From positions 1 through 23,187 of the forward strand of contig CAJAPL010000171.1 in the NCBI GenBank assembly GCA_903943625.1: DNA of 23,187 nucleotides. Direction: 5' to 3'. The stretch is from an uncultured bacterium (lineage in GTDB: Bacteria > Patescibacteriota > Gracilibacteria > Absconditabacterales > Absconditicoccaceae). Under the pieces are notes generated by a model. That model searched no databases. It saw only the letters and a program-made list of their open reading frames with translations, and was not told the origin of the DNA. Shown one piece after another: positions 390-19,828 of the stretch. Every line of letters begins with the position of its first letter. The first letter of the stretch is position 1. A program made the translations under genes and the position numbers.

Positions 390-3300
390 CTAAATTCTAA
401 GACCAAGTTTGCTCAAAGGTTGTTTTACCTTTATATTATTTTTTGATCTAATGAATAATCAAAGTGAGATTATCCTTCTCACAACTCATATTTCATCAAG
501 CAATTTTTTATCTATATATTGCTCAGCGAAAATAGGTAATGTTTTTAAGTGCACAGAATCTCAATCTCCTAAAGCATTATTTTTAAAGGCTTGTAGTTTA
601 AGATAAATATATTCTGATATAAATGGAGCAAATCAAGAACATATTTTTATATACGCCTCCATTACTTCTAGTAATGTGTTATAAGCAGATAACTTATCCT
701 CGTTCATCCCTGATGCTCGGAATCTCCTTCTAGACCTCCTAATATATCGATTATTTAATCTATCAACAAAGCTCAGAACAGATTTAGCCGCACTATCAAG
801 AGCATAAGAAGTCATAAATCACTCTACCTCAATTCATACTTTATTAAGTTCAGCCAATATTCGTTTATCCAGTTCATTTTCAATTTTATAGGTTGGCAAA
901 GCCACAAACTGAAGATGCTTAATATCAGCATCACGAGAATCGTCAAAAAGATTTGCCCATAATTGTCTAAAACACGGACGATGAGATACAATTAAAACGG
1001 TTTTTCATTTTTCAGATTCCAAAGTTTTTTTATAAAATTTCAGAGAATCTCAATCAGGAGTTAAAGCCAAATCAGTTTTTATTTCAATTTTTTTTCAAGT
1101 GTATTCTTTTAATATTTCAACAAATTTTTCTGCTGTCTGCATAGTTCTTTTTAATGGAGAACTATAAATCACATCTGGGTTTATCTTTATCACATCCTCA
1201 ATAAATTTTTTATCATTCATGTGCTTCATTCATTTAGAAGACAGTCACGCATCATCATCCTTTCAATCTGCCTCAGGATGTCTAAGAAAATAAACGCTTG
1301 TTCAATTAGATTTGAAATTATCTACGTTAGCGTATGTTTCAAAAAAGTTATAAGAGTTTATTATCGCACTTGTAAAATCCTTATAAATCTGATCGACCCC
1401 TCTTTCAGAAAATCTCATCGGTTCAGCTCTAACAGCTGGTGAAGATAGAAGATAAAGTCTATAAGAATCAGCTCAATATCTTTCAAAAACATATTTAGGG
1501 TCAGGGTAATTTTTAAGACTCTTTGACATCTTGCGTCAATCTTCCGCTAATATAAGTCAATTTATAACAACATTATTAAATGAATTTTTTCATGTAATAG
1601 CATTTCATATAACGTGCATAGTCCTAAACCATCATCTTGTCTGATCCAGTCATTCAATAATATAATCCGCTGGATATACAAAAGGTTTCTTACTAGATTT
1701 TCAAATATATCATACTTGACCAAATGGCATAGATCAAGACTCAAATCGACAATCCATTACCTCTGTTATCCTGCGATATTCATTTCAATCAATATTGAAT
1801 CGATAATTATCAACGTATGGTTTATGTAAGTCCACTTCTTTATTATGATCATTATCTCGATAATAGATTTTCATCTTTCAATTATGCAAATGCATCTCTC
1901 TTCATTTGCTGTCGTAATCAAAATCTCTGATTCTTTTAAACATCATTAATGTTGCTTCCGAATGAGATACAGTAACAACAGTTTTTGTTTTAAAAGTATG
2001 GGTAGTGTCTAGAAGAAAATCTTCACATCTTTTGTATATATCAAAGATTGATTCGCTACTTGGTCATTGCTTTTTATCTTCCCATCTCAAAAGATTATCT
2101 GAATCATGGACGATATCTTGAAAATCTGGGAGGAACAATTCCATTGCTCTAAAATCTACATATATATTTTTTCAAAGCTCAAACCTATTCTTTTCTCACG
2201 ATTTAAGGACATATTGGTATAACGTTCACTCATCATAGAGCTTTTGATAAAATTCTAAAGTTTTCTCATATTTTTTTACAATACCCCTCATCTCAGTTTT
2301 TCAAAATGTCTTCTCTAAATATGGCAATATAGTTTCAAATGTTCTTGGTAATGGAGAAATTACAAATACAACATTTTCAAGATCATCAGATAAAAATTTC
2401 AAATCCTTTATCAGATTGATTGCGTTCTGTTTTCATTGATAATCAAGGTGGGCCTTTCAATAGCTATCAGCTAAATGGGTTTCATTATAACTAGTTTTAC
2501 CATGTCTGATGAAAACAAGTTTAGTTAGATTTTTAGATCAATTAATTGTATTTTTCCACAGCTCATCTAGATTTCACACAACGATTTTGTCTTGTTCATT
2601 TTTTACATTTTCCCAAACTGGCAAAGGAGAACCTCGATATCTATTTCTAGATAAATTCCAATCAGGTGCGGAGGTTAAAGTATCACGAAATCTATTTTTA
2701 ACGGTCTCGGGCACAAATCAGATTTTTTCTGCATTTGGCACAGTTATCTTTGTAAGTTCTTGCTCTTTTATAAACCGACTTGTGATTGCTTTGGATATCA
2801 AAGGAGTTTCACATCTCCGACAATGTGGATAAGAGTGACTATAAGATCTCTGGCCTATAAGCTTTTTTTCTTCTTTTAATCTAGTTATGACTTTTTTATT
2901 TACATCAAAAACTGATTCTCACTTGTAGTCATCTACTTGCTCTGTGAATTCTCAAAAATCATTAACTGGCATAAATAACCAGTTTTTGGAATCTTCTCTA
3001 GGTAAAATAGTAGCAACTGCTTCAAAATCTTCTTGCCCAAATCAAGGTGCCATATGCACTACTCAAGTACCATCTTCTGTACTTACAAACTCTCAAGTAA
3101 TAACTTGAAAAAATTGATCCTTATACCTTTGATTGATATCACTTTGATTTATGTATGGGAAAAGTGGCTGATATTTAATTCACTTGAGGTTCTCTCCTTT
3201 CAAAATATTAATCAGAATATATTCATTGGAATCTTTATAATACTGCTTAATTAAATTCTCTGCAATAACATAATATTCCTTAGCATTTTTATCATAAACC

Positions 3301-4514
3301 ATGTAATATTTTATATCTTTTCATACAGCCAAAAACATATTGCTGGGCAAAGTTCGAGGTGTCGTAGTCCAAGCAAGTATATTTACATCAGCCTTAGCCA
3401 TTTCATCTCAAAAATTTTGAGTATAAGGTAAAACGTTTTTTATCGTATGAAACGGGACAAAAGAGCTCAACAGATCTTCCCTATCTTCAATAATTATATC
3501 TTGTATTTTAAGTCAGAATCAAAGACCATTATCAGAGTCTATCATCTCAATATATTCAATTTTTGTATGTTTGTTTTTTTCTTGTATCTTTGGCAATCAC
3601 ACGATTTCAATATCAAAATAATAAGCAATCACATTGGTTTTTCAGAGATATTTTCTTGCTCACAAATAATTAGAAGATTTTATTTCTACTCCCAACTCTT
3701 CGGTAAGCTCTCTTTTTAATGCTTCTTCATTAGTCTCCCCCAAATCTACTTTGCCGCCAGGGAATGTTCGAAAATTCCATCTAGGGTCAAAAAGGGTAAG
3801 GTATCTTCACTTATCATCTCTAATAACAGCTTTAGTTGTATATACAAACCCATCGTCTGTTTTTTTATATTTTGCCTCTCCACCAATCTCGGCATTTTGA
3901 ATTTTAAATTTTATAGTAATCGCAGGATCCTGTCTGTCCTTATATCAATCATTCACTTCGTTATTTGCCAATGTCGTAGCACAAGACGGGCAACATCGTT
4001 GCACTTTAAATCATTTATAAACCAAATTCTGATTATACATATTTTGGAAAACCCAGATTACGGATTCCATAAAATCAAGGTCCATGGTGAAATAGGCGTT
4101 ATCCATGTCTGCTCGCCTACCAACATTATCCACAAACCATTTTCGCTCATCATTTACATTACTTACATAACTTCTACAAGCTTCAGTAAATTTTTGAACT
4201 CAAAGTTTTTGCTCAATATCTTTTTTTCAATCAATTCAAAGATCTTTTTCAACAGCCTTTTCAACTGGCAATCCATGACAATCTCGTCATCGGTCTCTCA
4301 CTACCCTATATCATTTCATAGTTCGATATCTTCATATCAGATCCTTCATCACAGAAACAAGCCCATGACCAAAATGCGGTGTTCATGAAGCAAATGGAGG
4401 TCAATCATAAGTGATTGATTGTAATTTTTCTGATCTTTGATCAACAGACTTTTTGAAAACATCGTACTTCTTTCGATAATCAAGCATATCTTTTATCAAA
4501 TCTTTCTGATTCAT
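390..4514 (-). CDS. ileS: Isoleucyl-tRNA synthetase with three embedded hydrolase domains
   Basis: This 1374-residue class I synthetase charges tRNA-Ile with isoleucine in the cytoplasm. Visible in order are: the N-terminal LDYWKKYDVFKKS segment; a HIGH motif as HFGH at residues 47-50 within PFASGTPHFGHG; GWDCHGLPVE; the editing-domain motifs TTTPWTLPSN and GTGVVHMAP (about residue 480); WNLSRNRYWG; DCWFESGSMPF; KMSKS at 995-999; and the anticodon-domain motif NNWYIRRSRRRFW. These mark the eukaryote-like IleRS type. Three extra domains interrupt it: Nudix (~206-369), histidine phosphatase 1 (~662-892) and histidine phosphatase 2 (~1070-1211). The usual length is about 1040 residues. The protein stops at KQPLSKLGLRI (TAG), so the C-terminal domain normally found after that point is missing. 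Trp in the motifs above is mostly CGA. There is no T-box leader. The ATG at 4514 gives an N-terminus of ordinary family length. Confidence 0.97.
881..1306 (-). other. Histidine-phosphatase (SixA/PGAM-like) domain 2 embedded in IleRS
   Basis: A second, shorter histidine phosphatase domain of about 140 residues splits the anticodon-binding region. It sits between FETYANVDNF and ENELDKRILAELN. Signatures are VYFLRHPEAD (catalytic H1079, with RHP in place of RHG), LSSKG, IYSSPLKRTMQTAE and VLIVSHRPCF (second histidine H1178). The compact size and SPLKRTMQTA pattern resemble SixA-type phosphatases. It differs enough from domain 1 that a recent duplication is unlikely. Confidence 0.9.
1840..2530 (-). 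other. Histidine-phosphatase (PGAM-like) domain 1 embedded in IleRS
   Basis: The insertion lies between DELWKNT and the IleRS motif DLHKPYVD, where the chain returns from CP1 to the catalytic core. It shows the signature LVFIRHGKT (catalytic H671), SPLPRTFET, an SSES acidic segment, and VSHSEAT (second histidine H851). The catalytic set of the histidine phosphatase superfamily therefore looks complete. At about 230 residues it is the size of a whole phosphatase domain. The substrate cannot be told from the sequence. Confidence 0.9.
3408..3899 (-). other. Nudix hydrolase domain embedded in IleRS CP1 region
   Basis: About 160 extra residues lie between the IleRS segment ending TIKFKI and the editing motif TTTPWTLPSN. 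They contain a perfect Nudix box, GX5EX7REUXEEXGU, with G254, E260, R268, E269, E272, E273 and G275. It is preceded by NFWTFPGG, in which the Trp is CGA; WxxPGG is usual at that place in Nudix proteins. All metal-binding glutamates are present, so the domain is probably an active hydrolase of a nucleoside diphosphate linked to another group. The boundaries are estimates made by eye. Confidence 0.93.
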
Positions 4515-4768: not shown

Positions 4769-4814
4769 TTAAAAGCACAAGTATTTTAGACTTTTTACTT
4801 TCTACTTTCTACTC

Positions 4815-5369
4815 ATGGGTCAATTTCGCTCTAGACGAGAATATATATTTAAATTTTTAGCAGTTGTTTTTATATTAGTTTTGGCTTGATATATATATTT
4901 TCAAGTATCTACTTACGTAACCAACCAAAAAGTGAAAAACAATCAGATAATATTAAATAAACAAAATAGCGACCTAGAAAAATATAAACAATCCACATGA
5001 TACAACAAATTATATCTTATAAGAGAGCTAGAAAAGTCATCTCAATCAATGCCACGATCAGAACATATTCCAAAAATAATATCAATATTGGAAGACCTCA
5101 AATCAATAGACCCATCGTGAACATGATCTAACGATTCTATTATTTTATCAGATTTCAAAGTAAATTTAAATGAAATTAGTTTAAAATGAAGAGTCTCCAA
5201 TCTTAAACTACTATATTTCACTTCTCCCACATGAAAATTCAAGGCTCTAATAGATAGATTTGAAGATTTAGACTTTATTGAGGATATGCAAATCAAAACA
5301 TATGATAAAATATCAGATAAGTATTTTGAATTTGTTTTAAATGCTAAAATCAAGAACAATGGAAAATAA
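4815..5369 (+). CDS. PilN-like type IV pilus assembly protein
   Basis: A 184-residue protein has a short basic cytoplasmic N-terminus, one membrane helix at residues ~12-30 and a Lys/Asn-rich coiled stretch. A C-terminal domain includes ISLKGRVSNL and LIDRFEDLDFIEDM. This architecture, and the pattern of a 'functional' beta-strand followed by a helix near the C-terminus, match PilN, which with PilO forms the inner-membrane alignment complex of the type IV pilus. Overall sequence identity is too low to be sure from motifs alone. Its position as first gene of a pilus operon, just before a PilO-like gene and pilC, supports the call. Its stop overlaps the next gene by 11 bp. A GspL- or GspM-type alignment protein is the main alternative. 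Confidence 0.65.
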
Positions 5370-6120
5370 AGACATTATAGATAATTTGCTACAAAGCTGA
5401 AGTATCGATACTCAAAAAAACGATCAGGAGGATATGCAAATATGAGAAATTAGAATAATATCAATCAGATATAGATTATATTCCATTATACTAATAATTC
5501 TGATTATAGTTTGAATATTCAATTATATTTTACCAAAACAGGAGAGTTATCAAAATTCCAAACAAGCTCTTCAGACTATAAGAACAGAAACAGATAGTTT
5601 TGCAGACAAACAAAAACAGCTACAAATAGATATAGATTTATCGCAAAAAATAGAGAACTGAGAAGAAAAGATACTAGCATGTATAAACGACCAAGCTTGA
5701 TGTGAACAACTAGATCCACAAGTAAAAAGTAATTTTTCAGAAGTAGTATCTTATCTACAAGCAAATAGTTTAAGTAGCAAAAAGATGTCCGTAGATGAAA
5801 AAATGATATTGAAAAACATAAATGAATACCTAACTAAAAAAGATTTTTCTTGATTATCAAAAAATTGAGGGATAAACAAGATTTCGATTTGAGATCCCAC
5901 GGAATTCAAAAGTAATTTATATTATGTAACAATTTATTTAAACATAACATTCCAGAACAAAGACTGATTATTATCTTTTATACACAACATAGAGAGAAAA
6001 ATAAATCCTCAAAAAGATTTACGTATTCTATATAAAATTGACGAAATATCTTATGACTTGATGGCCTATGAGCAGAAACAAAACGTCGATATATACCTAA
6101 AAGCATTTTATTACAAATAA
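5359..6120 (+). CDS. PilO-like pilus alignment protein
   Basis: A 253-residue bitopic membrane protein has a ~38-residue cytoplasmic tail, one helix at ~40-57 (YSIILIILIIVGIF) and a coiled-coil stretch at ~65-100 rich in Gln and Lys. Its C-terminal globular part (LYYVTIYLNITFQNKDGLLS) resembles the ferredoxin-like fold of PilO, with a beta-strand leading into a helix FIHNIERK. PilO pairs with PilN and links the pilus motor platform to the rest of the machine. Membership is inferred from architecture and from its place between the PilN-like gene and pilC. The ATG lies inside the preceding gene (11-bp overlap), which suggests translational coupling. Confidence 0.62.
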
Positions 6121-6138
6121 TAAAATTTATAAATTATC

Positions 6139-7263
6139 ATGGAACCACAGATAAGCGCAAACAAAAGACACTGAATAGACTGATGGATACTTGGATTTTT
6201 ACGCCAAGTAGACAAGTGAAGTTTTGGTAGTAAAGAAAAAGTTATATTTTTCAAACAACTAGCCTACCTAATAAACTGATGAGTCGCCTTATCTGAGTCT
6301 ATGAATATAATAGAGACAAGCTCTGACAACTATTCTGTAAAAGAAATAGCAAGAAGCGTAAATGCGCATCTAATACAGTGAAGAGAGTTATCATATGCAT
6401 TCACTAGATTGCCAGATTATTTTGATGAAAGAGATTATAGTATAGTAAAAGCTTGAGAGAAATCATGAAATATAGTAACCATACTTAAAGCCCTTGCGGA
6501 TGAATATACCTACATGAATGAAATAAAAAACAAGTATATTATAGCACTTACCTATCCCACAATATTAATAGTCATAACAATAGTAGCCATCATAGCACTA
6601 TTTGCTTTTGTTCTACCATGAATTTTTGAAATAGCCAATAGTTTCCAAAACGTTCAATTGCCAACGATTACGATTGTTTTAAAAAATATAGCAGATTGAG
6701 CAAAAGAAAATCGAAAATCAATGATATGGATATTCATATCAGCAGTGACTCTTTTGTTAATATTTTTATCTACGGATAGGGGCAAGAAAACACGGTTCTC
6801 TGTGATACTCAAAATACCTCTTTTCGGTAAGTTAACAAAATATTATTATCTTATAAAACGATGTAGATATACCAAAATAATGCTCCAATCATGAATGAAT
6901 TACATAGAAACATTCCAGCTTTTGAGAGATATATTGAATATACCAGTTTATCAAAATATGATAGAACAAATACTTGTATGATTGCAAAAATGAGAGACAG
7001 TTTACGATACCATAAAATACCAAACCTACCTTATACCAAGTAACGTTTCAGCTCTTATAAAAGTTTGAGAAGAAACAGCAAATTTGGAAAATTCCCTTGA
7101 AAATATTTTAAAAATGCATGAAGAAGAATTGGACAACAACATCAATCGTCTTGCAAAAGTTATAGAACCAGTTATATTGGTATTTATATGAGTAATAGTA
7201 GTTGTCATAGCACTTGGCGTATTTTGATTGATATTAAAAATCATGGAATGAGTATGAAACTAA
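6139..7263 (+). CDS. pilC: PilC / GspF-type pilus assembly platform protein
   Basis: This 374-residue polytopic protein is the inner-membrane platform on which the pilus ATPases act. It has two GspF domains. The first contains FFKQLAYLINGGVALSES and AGEKSGNIVTILKALADEY, followed by the helix YPTILIVITIVAIIALFAF. The second contains MLQSGMNYIETFQLLRDIL and KVGEETANLENSLENI, and ends in the helix VILVFIGVIVVVIALGVFG. KIPLFGKL between the domains is typical. By eye I count about 18 TGA and 5 GGN codons for glycine, the clearest local evidence that TGA is the main glycine codon. Several CGA and one CGG (KT[CGG]FSV) read best as Trp. It is slightly shorter than the usual ~400 residues. Its end overlaps the next gene by 16 bp. 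Confidence 0.95.
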
Positions 7264-7790
7264 AAAATATAAAAATTCCAAAAAAATTCTGATTTACGTT
7301 GTTGGAAATGCTTGTTGTATTGGTAATTATAAGCATAATTTTATGAATGACTATGTATTTAGGATCAGAGAATATCTTTAGATTAAGGTACAAGACTACC
7401 AAAGAAGATTTTTTATCAACATTTAACCTATTTTATACCAATTCACTAGAGTCAAATTATATAAATCAAAATCGTTTTGATAATCTAGATTTAGGACTAT
7501 TCTCTTGAAAGAATCGAATATCATACGCATATATTTGATCATCATTAAATCAAACATGAGAGAAAAAAACAAATTTACTTGAAATTTCTGATATCAAGAT
7601 AGATAGTTGAGTAGTGCAAAATCAGGTATCCATAAACATTAAACCATACAAATTATGATGTGATATAAAAGATATAACCAATCATACATGATCTAGATTA
7701 GATTTTAAAATAATAGTAAATAAAGTAAAAACATATTGTTTATACCTACTTTCTCAAAATTGCAAAATCAAAGAACAGATGTGCCCATAA
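7248..7790 (+). CDS. Type IV prepilin, FimU/GspH-like minor pilin
   Basis: A 180-residue prepilin has a class III signal: a basic leader, then KKFG|FTLLEMLVVLVIISIIL, with cleavage after the Gly and Glu at mature position 5. The Gly before the cleavage site is encoded by TGA, so the signal is invisible under the standard code. The hydrophobic helix is followed by LFYTNSLESN and a small beta-rich domain with cysteines near the C-terminus. It is the first of four minor pilins. Its position and LLEMLVVLVI helix suggest a FimU/GspH role in initiating the pilus tip. A second in-frame ATG two codons downstream is equally possible as the start. Confidence 0.85.
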
Positions 7791-7827
7791 TCGATTATTT
7801 AAGCTTTTAAGCGCTTATTTATATGGT

Positions 7828-7846
7828 CTCGGCAGCCGAGGTTTTT
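7828..7846 (+). terminator. Hairpin with T-run inside the pilus operon
   Basis: CTCGG-CAG-CCGAG (7828-7840) is an unusually GC-rich stem in this DNA and is followed by GTTTTTA. It looks like a weak intrinsic terminator or attenuator after the first minor pilin gene. The stem is only 5 bp plus possible G-U extensions, so read-through is plausible. Confidence 0.55.
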
Positions 7847-7880
7847 ATGTTAAGTAACAAGGTCTAAGTTCTATTTTATC

Positions 7881-7908
7881 TTGAATATTAGATCTCAAAT
7901 CTTATAAA
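7881..7908 (+). promoter_or_regulatory. Candidate internal promoter for pilV-pilW-pilX-like genes
   Basis: TTGAAT (7881-7886) and TATAAA (7903-7908) are separated by 16 nt. The predicted start is about 23 nt before the ATG at 7938, the same short leader seen at other promoters here. It follows the internal terminator-like hairpin. Confidence 0.5.
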
Positions 7909-7937
7909 TTTTTTAGTTTATAAACAACTATCTTTTT

Positions 7938-8540
7938 ATGAAATCAAAAGGGTTTACTCTCATAGAAATAATAATTGTAATAGCTGTATTTTCTATATGA
8001 ATAATGGCAGTTTTTTACTTAGTTACAAACAATCTAGAAAGACTAGACGAAACCAAGACTAGGAACATAGCAACTTTTTTGTCCAAAGAATGAATAGAAA
8101 TGGCTTTTAACGCGAGAGATGCTAATTTAGCCAAAGAACTTCCATGGAACTGTGTTTTTACTGATGATAATATAAATGATCCAGACCCCAAGCTTTGTAG
8201 TTGATTTTTTGCTTCATGAATCCAATGAAAGTACATTCAAATATCTTTTAATGCTTCCGAATATCCAAAGCTTATCTGGACACCTTTAAATACCTTTGAA
8301 AACAATAGAATTTACTACCATTCATGAAACATAAATTGAATCAACATGTCCCGATACAATAATGATTCTAGCTATTGAGAAGAAACGATTTTTGCAAGAT
8401 ATATAGTATTTACGTGAGTACAAGAAAATTGACAAGTCCTACCTACAGATAAAATACTTAAGCTTGAGTCACATGTATTATTTTCGAAATGAGCAAAGAC
8501 ATGAGAAGTGATATTAGAAAGTTTTATCGGAAATTATTAG
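7938..8540 (+). CDS. Type IV prepilin, PilV/GspI-like minor pilin
   Basis: A 200-residue prepilin has a very short leader, MKSKG|FTLIEIIIVIAVFSIGIM, with Glu at mature position 5. The SIGIMA turn in the helix, followed by a segment containing ERLDETKTRNIATFLSKEGI, is typical of PilV/GspI pilins. The remainder is a Cys- and aromatic-containing globular domain rich in TGA-encoded Gly. It is second in the minor pilin cluster, matching the FimU-PilV-PilW-PilX order known from other bacteria. It ends two bases before the next start. No Shine-Dalgarno sequence precedes the ATG. Confidence 0.85.
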
Positions 8541-8542
8541 AT

Positions 8543-9181
8543 ATGAATAGATCAAAGTGATTTACCCTCGTAGAAACACTTATAGTAGTAATCATCATAT
8601 GAATATTATCAGTGATTTTGATGAAAACATATACTTTCATATCAGAAATATCTTTTAGAATACAGCAAGAAAAAAACGTCACACAAGAAACATTGTTCTT
8701 GTCTCAAATAGTTCAAAATCTATCTGATAGAAACAGTATAGATTATGATAGATACAATGCTATATCAACATGATATCTTACATCTAGAAGCTGATTTGTA
8801 GATATATTGTATCTAAGCTGACAAGATTGAAAAATAGAAATTTATACCACATGAACATGCATAGATCCATGAACCAACATAGATATTCTAACATGATGAT
8901 ATGAGTGTTATATACAACTAATAAAAAACTTAGAAGTCTCTAATATTACAAATCCACAAACCATGTATATCTCCAGAACTATTTTCAAGATCATACCATA
9001 CGATTCATCTATAAATTATATAAATGATATCTCCCCATGTATAAATCCCATATCATGCATCCACAAACCATGATTTTTCATGATAGCAAAGGCATATTCG
9101 CCGACATACAATAAAGAACGATACAACAGAATACAGATACCAATCCAACAGTTCTTTAATTCAATAAATATTGATGAGTAG
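8543..9181 (+). CDS. Type IV prepilin, PilW/GspJ-like minor pilin
   Basis: A 212-residue prepilin begins MNRSKG|FTLVETLIVVIIIGI, with a TGA-encoded Gly before the cleavage site and Glu at +5. The helix continues into SEISFRIQQEKN and FLSQIVQNLSDRNSIDYD. That 'e..l..i...l' segment after the helix is characteristic of PilW/GspJ. A long C-terminal domain carries several Cys (CIDPG, YECYIQ, CINPISCIHKP) that could form disulfides outside the cell. It is third of the minor pilins and overlaps the following gene by 8 bp. Confidence 0.82.
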
Positions 9182-10109
9182 GAAATCATTCAGCAATCCA
9201 ATAACAAATAATAGATGAAATATAAGCATTTTAGTGATTTTTGTATTGATAGCATCTTCTCTGATATGAATCCTAACAACAAATTATATAAAAGATTTGA
9301 TGCAATATAACAACATAATTTATTGATATTATAAATCATATTATCTATCAAAAGCGTGACTTGAACTGTCTTTGGCAGAGATAGCGCAAAATTGAATATG
9401 ATTTGAAAATACAATAGGCACATGAGATAATATCATATCTTGAAATTTTATCTGTAAAAACTGCAATTTCTACGGCAGTATCTCATGAAATTCAAGTTAT
9501 TTTTCTAAAAGCCCACGAAAAGATAGTTGATGTAACAACCCTATTTTATTAAGTACTTGAGAGTCTTTTGTCCTACCACTTTTCAAACAAAAAAACAGTG
9601 GAACAAATTATCAAAAATTGAGCGACCCTCCAATTTATAAAAATATGGCTGATCAAATAACAAACATTAAATTTGAAAATATTTCTCCCAATAGAGAACT
9701 CACAATATGAATATTTGTAATGTCATGATTGGACATATTACAAGATGGAGTGTTTGTAAAAACAGGATCAACAAACAATCCAAACATAATAGACGATTTC
9801 TTGGCTGCATTCAACGCCTATGCCACAAACATATCAATATGAAGTTATACGCTCTTAAATGCTTATACTATTGATTCTTTATGATTAAACAGCTTCCTTT
9901 TATTTGGAAACACAACAGAAACCCAACAGGCAATATCTTTCTGCGTCAAAATAGAACCACTAGTATGATTGCCAAATATAATAACACTACCCACAAGTAC
10001 GTTTTACATAAAGAGCATATGAAACAACATAGAAAAAACCATATGATTAGAGGCATTTCTTAAACAACCCATACCAGAATTTCTTATTCACACATATCTT
10101 GGCTTATAA
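9174..10109 (+). CDS. PilX/GspK-like minor pilin
   Basis: A 311-residue membrane-anchored protein has an N-terminal NNRGNISILVIFVLIASSLI helix, followed by YYKSYYLSKAGLELSLAEIA. The latter closely matches the 'YLAEAGLE.AL' signature of PilX-type proteins. Like GspK and PilX, and unlike the three prepilins before it, it has no FTLxE motif. The protein is larger than the other minor pilins, as GspK usually is. Its central part has a CKNC pair and many TGA-encoded Gly. It is the last gene of the operon, ends in TAA, and is followed directly by a strong hairpin terminator. Confidence 0.78.
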
Positions 10110-18077: not shown

Positions 18078-18980
18078 ATGAACGGAGATAATGGGACAGC
18101 AGATGCAATATCCTCAGGATTATTTGGACTACAATGAAGTGAGGTCCGATGATATATACTCAAAATCCTATGATGAGTGATAGTAATCATCATAATGCTT
18201 TTGATATCCAAAATAGTCGCCTGAATAGTAAAAAGGAATATCTTAAAAAACAATACCATAGCAGATAGTAAACACATAGATAAAATAGCATCATTAATAT
18301 GAAACATAGTCTTTTATGTAATGGTTATTTTTTCTCTGTTTATATGATTTGAGATTATGTGATTTAATGTTGGATTGATTTTATGATGAGTATCATTTGG
18401 TGTATGACTTGCATTCAAAGAAATCTTATGAAATATGATAGCGGGGATAATGGTGCTTTATACAAAAGAAGTTAAATTGTGAGACATCGTGGAAATCAAT
18501 GCAGATCAAGTATATTTTGGAAGAATAGAAGAAATCACAATCAGATATACAATCATAAGGACACTTGACCTTAGAGAGGTTGTCATACCCAATATGACAC
18601 TTATATCAGTCCCCATCAAAACATTTAGTTCAGAGGATTTGGTGAAATTGTCAGTCCCATTATCCGTGCACTATAACACAGATATAGCACAGGCAATACA
18701 ATGCGTAACTGAGACTATAAACAGTTTTGAATTTGTAAAAGAAAAAGAAAATACAAAGGTTTTTGTTACAACCTTTGGGGCTAGTTCTATAGACCTAAAT
18801 TGATTGTTCTGTTTTGACCCTAAGTGCTGACTATTAACAGATTACGCAATATGAGCAGTCAATGAAAAGATAAATGCAGAATTTAAAAAGAACAACATAA
18901 ACATGCCATACAACACAGTTACTGTGAATTTTGATAAACCAGATGACAAAGCAGTCACTTTGAATAATTTAAATCAATAA
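18078..18980 (+). CDS. MscS-family mechanosensitive channel 1
   Basis: A 300-residue inner-membrane channel of the kind that opens under membrane tension to release solutes in osmotic downshock. Three helices are visible: ~25-50 (WGYILKILGGVIVIIIMLLI), ~68-92, and the pore-lining segment GVSFGVGLAFKEILGNMIAG with its Gly/Ala ridge. The beta domain follows (LGDIVEINADQVYFGRIEEI, VVIPNMTLIS). Many pore Gly are TGA. In GSEV[CGA]GYILK the CGA reads as Trp at the membrane edge. The start is fixed by an in-frame TAA directly before the ATG. An overlapping 30-codon frame at 18091 has a better-looking purine-rich upstream sequence but no conservation. It ends 5 bp before the second channel gene. Confidence 0.92.
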
Positions 18981-18985
18981 TAATA

Positions 18986-19828
18986 ATGCAACAAGAATTA
19001 TTACAAGCTATTTACAATTATATATCACAAAACTGATTAAAAATAATCTGAAAACTTTTTCTTGCTTGAATAATTTTTATATGAATCTGGATTTTTATAA
19101 AACGATTTACCCAAAGAGTAAAGGCAAGAATAGAACAAAACTCTACCCAATCAGATGAAAAATACACAAAAAAAATATCAAATCTGATTGGAAGTATGAT
19201 ATTTGTATTATTGATGATATTCAATGTATTGATTATATTTGGAGTAATATGATTTGATGTAGCAATACTTATGTGATGAATTTCACTTGGTATATGATTC
19301 GCAATGGAGACAACCATTTGAAACATGGTCTCATGAATAATGATACTTACAAACAAAAAAGTAAGATTATGAGATTATGTACAGATGACATGATCATTGA
19401 ACATAAGCTGAACAATAGATGAGATCAATATCAGATACACAGTGGTCAAAACCCTAGATAAAAGAAGGGTTATTGTCCCCAACATGATATTAGCAGCGAC
19501 ACCAATCAAAACACTTAAGGCAGAGCCACTCATAAGATGAGAAATAGATTTCATTTTACCTCGTCATGTAGAAATTAATCAGATAAAAACATTATTAACC
19601 GATACAATAAACCTAGAAGAAAAAGTTTTACACAAAGAGTACACAACAGTATTTATAAAATCCTTTGATTCTCGCTGAATAAATTTTAAATGATTCTTCT
19701 TTTTTAACCCAAAGTGATGAAAATGAAACTTTGTAATCTGATCAGAACTTAGGACAAAGATACAGACAATATTCAAAAAATACTGAATTTCTATCCCATA
19801 CGAACACATTACAATCACTACAGAGTAA
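18986..19828 (+). CDS. MscS-family mechanosensitive channel 2
   Basis: A 280-residue paralogue of the preceding gene. It has an N-terminal helix (KLFLAGIIFIGIWIFI), a second helix around 65-88, and the pore segment LMGGISLGIGFAMETTIGNM. The beta domain shows VRLGDYVQMTGSLNISGTID, INIRYTVVKTLDKRRVIVPN and a C-terminal alpha/beta part ending IPYEHITITTE. The pore helix and the VPNM strand align with channel 1, but the C-terminal halves differ considerably, so the duplication is old or the two came separately. Both probably share one transcript from the promoter at 18020. It ends in TAA, 42 bp before the next gene. Confidence 0.92.

Follow-up and report, generated by a model that had tools for sequence, protein, structure and literature searches.

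Type-2 (eukaryote-like) isoleucyl-tRNA synthetase (IleRS), as represented by the TIGR00392 profile and by the yeast and Thermus enzymes, has a catalytic core, an editing domain, a KMSKS motif and an anticodon-binding domain, followed by a C-terminal domain, PF19302 (DUF5915). One oddity in which IleRS carries an extra enzyme domain, an N-acetyltransferase (GNAT), has already been catalogued as NF040702 (ileS_w_GNAT), and split synthetases exist, such as the alpha-beta leucyl-tRNA synthetase (LeuRS) of Aquifex, which is encoded by two genes. Here we describe the ileS gene of an uncultured member of the Absconditabacteria (order Absconditabacterales, class Gracilibacteria, phylum Patescibacteria), found on contig CAJAPL010000171.1 (C171) of a draft assembly totalling 1.01 Mb (216 contigs, 88% complete); the window analysed is that entire contig of 23187 bases. 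The encoded chain has the same core, editing domain, KMSKS and anticodon-binding domain as the type-2 enzymes, an assignment that rests on its best solved relatives, and differs from them in that it contains three nested hydrolase domains, one Nudix domain and two histidine phosphatases (HPs; HP1 and HP2), and in that its DUF5915 domain lies on a separate gene. Compared with Aquifex LeuRS, the enzyme concerned is IleRS, the cut falls between the anticodon-binding and C-terminal domains, and hydrolases are nested in the large chain. Few enzymes are as strongly conserved as synthetases, and here one appears to be cut into two genes while holding three other enzyme domains.

A Nudix domain and an RHG histidine phosphatase also share one chain in mycobacterial MutT1, which is reported, in an excerpt of PMC11784022, to act on diadenosine polyphosphates. 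As that excerpt describes it, MutT1 is a free protein with two adjacent domains, whereas in the window chain the Nudix domain and the HP stand apart, with the editing domain between them, and are nested in a synthetase. By profile, the window HPs share the fold family and the catalytic R, H, R and H of the branch-1 histidine phosphatases SixA, PhoE and PspA; unlike these, they are nested in a synthetase, and in trees most nested HPs group with one another, apart from the free HPs sampled in the class. The window protein does not belong to NF040702 (it scores 303.5 bits, where 1999 are required, and has no GNAT), and a GNAT-bearing IleRS of the same order, L122, also falls under that cut-off, at 248.9 bits. 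No description of an IleRS with nested Nudix and HP domains was found in the open-licence literature searched, in which no search was aimed at split IleRS. Where database names are shown, those of the nearest large chains read 'class I tRNA ligase family protein', and those of the best 120 of 544 matches to the small chain read 'DUF5915 domain-containing protein' or 'isoleucyl-tRNA synthetase'; neither the hydrolases nor the split is therefore visible in them.

A first-pass annotation of the sequence had proposed one uninterrupted frame with all IleRS signatures in order and three hydrolase domains between IleRS modules, each with its catalytic residues, and all of this is borne out. With TGA read as Gly and CGA/CGG as Trp, 1374 codons run to a TAG stop (Table 1). 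When the protein was aligned to 16 IleRS that use the standard code, columns at CGA codons held W in 174 of 223 cells, those at CGG held W in 27 of 32, and those at TGA held G in 332 of 575; since these columns agree with the reassignments UGA=Gly and CGA/CGG=Trp published for Absconditabacteria (PMC8629427, in excerpt), the recoded reading is supported. The TIGR00392 profile scores the chain at 791 bits, above its cut-off of 621.4, and the HFGHG (HIGH-like) motif, the editing domain, KMSKS and the anticodon-binding domain follow one another in IleRS order. Pfam finds tRNA-synt_1, NUDIX (3.7e-13), Anticodon_1 (residues 1216-1368) and His_Phos_1, the last in three stretches (4e-24). Against a solved yeast-type IleRS the chain aligns as four pieces (residues 10-206, 377-666, 894-1059 and 1202-1370), and the three gaps between them therefore place the three inserts. 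The Nudix domain conforms to the G-x5-E-x7-RE-U-x-EE-x-G-U box, all four catalytic residues (R, H, R, H) are present in both HP1 and HP2, and HP2 matches the SixA profile at 7e-13, under the SixA family cut-off. The only HP matches in the source genome, at its 88% completeness, are these pieces within ileS; Nudix matches occur in five places, one of them inside ileS. Base composition lends no support to the inserts having been acquired recently from a foreign source, as GC content is alike in the synthetase core and the inserts (0.29-0.32 overall).

The active sites of the inserts are mostly conserved. Conservation was scored in 68 nonredundant sequences (<85% identity) drawn from the window protein and the other 119 of its best 120 database matches, a set of the members most like the window and hence biased to intact ones, to which the order-wide survey below adds exceptions. 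All four HP1 residues (R670, H671, R724 and H851) are invariant (68/68), and E269, E272 and E273 of the Nudix box are kept in all 67 readable rows, one row being gapped; position 268 is R in 34 rows and K in 33. HP2 is looser, with R1078 in 59, H1079 in 60, R1123 in 58 and H1178 in 59 of the 68 (85-88%). Mean pairwise identity in the same set is 0.43 for Nudix, 0.39 for HP1 and 0.38 for HP2, and 0.63-0.74 for the synthetase segments. The inserts thus drift while their catalytic residues mostly stay. Because those residues are invariant or nearly so inside inserts otherwise diverged to 38-43% identity, the earlier argument for a selected function over an assembly error is supported.

The window chain lacks the PF19302 domain by Pfam, and the chains of the clade to which it belongs (defined below) all stop after the anticodon-binding domain, with tails of 0-3 residues. 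The domain has not been lost outright, as it is present in the same genome as a separate gene of 207 aa (G000:C162, about 4776-5396, minus strand; E 1.4e-21). Because the domain is missing from the chain and yet encoded elsewhere in the same genome, the IleRS of this organism is predicted from sequence to be encoded by two genes, one for the large chain and one for the C-terminal domain, and the two products may form one alpha-beta enzyme. The first-pass annotation thus needs one correction, in that the chain falls short of a complete IleRS. PF19302 is found once per genome in 46 of the 49 genomes of the order, beside ileS in eight (G379, G380, G390, G395, G401, G407, G409 and G410) and away from it in 38, the window's genome among them; the 38 also include G408, a genome 65% complete in which ileS finds no match. 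When 20 of the 38 distant copies were fetched, all 20 were free open reading frames that matched a hidden Markov model of the fused tails at E values of 4.5e-39 to 3.8e-47. PF19302 had no match in three of the 49 genomes, G387, G402 and G426; G426 has the large chain of the clade (L138), and its second gene is either lost or missing from the draft. In a database search with the small gene's product, 544 proteins match, and among the best 120 of these 100 are 205-207 aa long (range 204-252).

Within the order, the chains that carry the clade's HP2 are the same as those without a C-terminal domain, an association that rests on a single tree branch; where an HP occurs at site C elsewhere (L009 and L047), the C-terminal domain is retained. 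At two loci of the order, L139 (G414) and L141 (G416), ileS is cut once more, after CRFESGAMPFGQEHY. The two halves are separated by a UMPH-1 5'-nucleotidase gene in G414 and by DUF559 and DUF4357 genes in G416; an intron was considered and rejected, as there is no Rfam match at the gathering threshold and the gap holds separate genes. Counting the separate C-terminal gene, these two loci are predicted to encode a three-piece IleRS.

The layout is not peculiar to one genome. With the window ileS as query, 48 of the 49 genomes of the order match, and 21 of the 49 do so over the full length in one frame; in the others ileS is cut by contig ends or different in layout. Two of the 21, the near relatives UBA6263 and Tobar13m-G42, share the window layout, their best segments being 68% and 61% identical to it, and the outcomes that would have told against the annotation, a chimeric contig or relatives with the three domains as separate genes, did not occur. 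A database search scored 8000 candidates, of which 7920 matched; among the best 120 of these, the window itself included, PF00300 is present in 120 and PF00293 in 99. We also read twenty further loci of the order (L122-L141), which form a mosaic: L122 has a GNAT domain at site A by Pfam, L125 one HP and L127 two HPs at site B, L135 Nudix as its sole insert, and L126, cut by a contig end, no insert that could be seen. On a tree of 82 IleRS cores, made by a quick method with the inserts removed and the domain states assigned by hand, the chains with Nudix and HP2 (or an HP2 remnant) form one group of 32 (SH-aLRT 100), which we refer to as the clade. We also note that genus g322 (L130-L134) displays the decay of HP1 to its loss, with one species whose HP1 is without catalytic residues and four without the domain.

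Nesting of related domains extends well beyond the clade, across a whole bacterial radiation. Among the matches listed from a search of 379 genomes of the phylum, we picked 24 with IleRS frames >1110 aa (L041-L064), and also took 16 IleRS of about normal length (L065-L080). All 24 long frames hold an insert >130 aa, which is an HP in 19 and a Nudix domain in four; other inserts include a serine hydrolase (L053), a Y1_Tnp domain (L049) and a CYTH-like domain (L058). The last matches the solved protein NE1496, a triphosphate tunnel enzyme, at 7e-12; the insert of L054 resembles that of L058 by eye. In 60 genomes of the class, an HP is nested in the IleRS of 33, in the valyl-tRNA synthetase (ValRS) of 10, and in either of 36, counts that may miss matches under the E-value cut of the search. 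ValRS had been taken as a negative control, and its failure (10 of 60) rejects a role of the nested HP specific to IleRS. Among HPs in frames of at least 1000 aa in these genomes, two matches lie outside IleRS and ValRS, one in alanyl-tRNA synthetase (AlaRS; G440) and one in UvrB (G429). In 126 genomes of the phylum, HPs in frames of at least 990 aa occur in 18 genomes, in IleRS in 16 and in ValRS in three, one genome having both; the window's own HP match falls below the E-value cut of this search.

Several of these loci deserve mention in their own right. L168 (G242) and L144 (G440) are an IleRS with three nested HPs and a ValRS with three nested HPs. In G429, UvrB holds an HP and a serine hydrolase, IleRS a Nudix domain and an HP, and LeuRS two Nudix domains (L170, L171 and L235). 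The transposase-like Y1_Tnp domain lies inside the IleRS frame of two genomes of the same family, L049 (G334) and L154 (G443). The ValRS of L152 and L153 (G405 and G421) have an insert of ~100 aa near site B with no Pfam match. End-to-end fusions (L232-L234 and L236-L238) were left out as not nested; in L233, L234, L237 and L238 an HP follows a dehydrogenase-like protein or a Nudix domain follows an EPSP-synthase-like protein, the hosts being assigned by eye.

The nested HPs appear to have moved between hosts. A carefully built tree of 54 HP domains, hand-picked from 108, unites the 15 HPs of ValRS and AlaRS in one clade (95/97) that encloses the AlaRS domain; in G429, the HPs of UvrB and IleRS come out as sisters (99/92). 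When all 108 are placed on a quick tree, the free HPs mostly stand apart, with a minimum of five changes between the fused and free states. Since the ValRS and AlaRS domains group together and the two HPs of G429 are sisters, it is likely that nested HPs spread partly by copying between host proteins within a lineage, a conclusion drawn from trees with many weak branches and 20 sampled free HPs. For the Nudix domains, the comparison of fused and free copies resolved no single origin, with weak support and long branches that meet. Tentatively, and with somewhat less than even confidence, we propose that the Patescibacteria harbour a spreading family of working phosphatase domains inside IleRS and ValRS that hops to other hosts, and that the Absconditabacteria have gone furthest, with a two-gene IleRS whose three hydrolases would couple tRNA charging to nucleotide clean-up. 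The split synthetase with its built-in hydrolases, and the related nesting elsewhere in the radiation, offer a testable case for the way nested partners are acquired by enzymes, for the tolerance of an essential enzyme to one insertion after another, and for the fate of synthetase by-products in bacteria with small genomes.

What the nested domains do can be approached through their hosts and their chemistry. Ap4A and like dinucleoside polyphosphates are side products of synthetases. Because nearly every host is a synthetase and phosphate-cleaving families abound among the nested domains, we favour, at about even probability, a reading in which the ileS product is the large chain of a predicted two-gene IleRS and its Nudix domain and two HPs are tethered phosphate-cleaving enzymes that remove nucleotide or phosphate by-products next to the synthetase. 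The large chain and the separate C-terminal gene product would assemble as one alpha-beta IleRS, to which the nested domains, catalytically active, would remain tethered. The Nudix domain would cut a nucleoside-diphosphate-linked compound, either a dinucleoside polyphosphate such as Ap4A or a damaged nucleoside triphosphate, HP1 would cut a phosphomonoester, and HP2 may be turning from an enzyme into a scaffold in some lineages.

A number of observations weigh against this proposal. Aminoacylation by-products do not readily explain the HP nested in UvrB or the Y1_Tnp domain in IleRS; for one nested HP, the closest HPs of solved structure are broad phosphatases that give no pointer to a substrate, and the activity of the HP part of MutT1 is termed unknown in the introduction of the paper cited above (PMC11784022, in excerpt). 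A given catalytic residue of HP2 is missing in 8 to 10 of the 68 sequences, and all four residues are present in just 11 of 15 HPs sampled from the clade, although one of the four shortfalls is a truncated extract. Of the 32 clade members placed on the tree, six have an HP1 that is dead or missing: L130, which has Nudix and HP2, has an HP1 stripped of its catalytic residues, L131-L134 hold Nudix and HP2 without HP1, and L139 keeps Nudix, lacks HP1 and has its HP2 reduced to a remnant of 66 aa. In four unsplit relatives within the order that have the C-terminal domain (L123, L124, L128 and L129), no inserted domain was found. Because of these losses and these insert-free relatives, the nested domains are dispensable, and 'selected' is not to be equated with indispensable.

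The same dispensability of HP1 feeds the main rival, a strong one that we nevertheless regard as less likely than not: that the synthetase is a mere carrier, offering insertion-tolerant loops and steady expression to enzymes active in unrelated jobs. The loops are used by many domains (Nudix, HP, GNAT, serine hydrolase, CYTH-like and Y1_Tnp), UvrB has received an HP too, and presence is patchy, with fewest changes on the IleRS tree of 14 for HP at site B, five for Nudix at site A and three for HP at site C. The choice of hosts argues the other way, as it is far from random: all but two of the class HPs in the long frames counted above, and all of those in the phylum sample, are in IleRS or ValRS.

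That hosts are mostly synthetases would also suit protection in cis, in which the inserted domains would reverse a modification carried by the synthetase or tRNA, or destroy toxic aminoacyl-adenylate analogues or the marks of kinase toxins. The GNAT and serine-hydrolase inserts that accompany the HP and Nudix ones are reminiscent of enzymes that confer immunity to nucleotide antibiotics; we nonetheless think this explanation unlikely. Very unlikely, in our judgement, is a purely structural role, with the inserts as non-catalytic spacers or tRNA-binding modules and HP2 perhaps tied to the detached C-terminal domain. The coincidence of the clade's HP2 with the missing C-terminal domain would fit such a role, as would the HP2 of L139, eroded yet not removed, and the fact that HP2 most often loses catalytic residues. 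Conservation speaks against it, with the catalytic residues of HP1 invariant and those of Nudix nearly so in the 68 sequences, and with a full catalytic quartet, when the HPs are aligned to each other, in 64 of the 65 nested IleRS HPs from outside the clade; by the same alignment the set is complete in 14 of 16 ValRS HPs, in the single AlaRS and UvrB HPs (1/1 each) and in 19 of 20 free HPs. Moreover, the separate C-terminal gene is kept, and HP2 therefore need not replace it. An artefact of assembly or annotation, which the fragmentation of the draft might invite, has a negligible probability and is rejected, because a single frame covers the whole layout in 21 of the 49 genomes of the order and this layout recurs in independent genomes and many database proteins, and core and inserts are alike in GC.

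Table 1. Features of the ileS large chain, with positions in the window.
Feature	Position	Strand	Remarks
ileS large chain: IleRS with nested Nudix, HP1 and HP2	390..4514	-	1374 aa, TAG stop
IleRS catalytic core, first half (residues 1-208); HFGHG motif at residue 47	3891..4514	-	
Nested Nudix domain (residues 209-372), site A, between catalytic core and editing domain	3399..3890	-	NUDIX 229-322; yeast-type gap 206-377
Nudix box GGKVDLGETNEEALKRELTEELGV (residues 253-276), intact	3687..3758	-	
Editing (CP1) domain and return to core (residues 373-655)	2550..3398	-	
Nested histidine phosphatase HP1 (residues 656-892), site B; R670, H671, R724, H851	1839..2549	-	
IleRS catalytic core, second half (residues 893-1068); KMSKS at residue 995	1311..1838	-	
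Nested histidine phosphatase HP2 (residues 1069-1207), site C, SixA-like by profile; R1078, H1079, R1123, H1178	894..1310	-	
Anticodon-binding domain (residues 1208-1374), chain end, without DUF5915 C-terminal domain	393..893	-	

Elsewhere in the window, type IV pilus-like genes (4815-10109), recognised by eye, are divergent from ileS, and the same arrangement adjoins ileS in L007 and L008. A tandem pair of MscS-like channel genes, also identified by eye, lies at 18078-19828.

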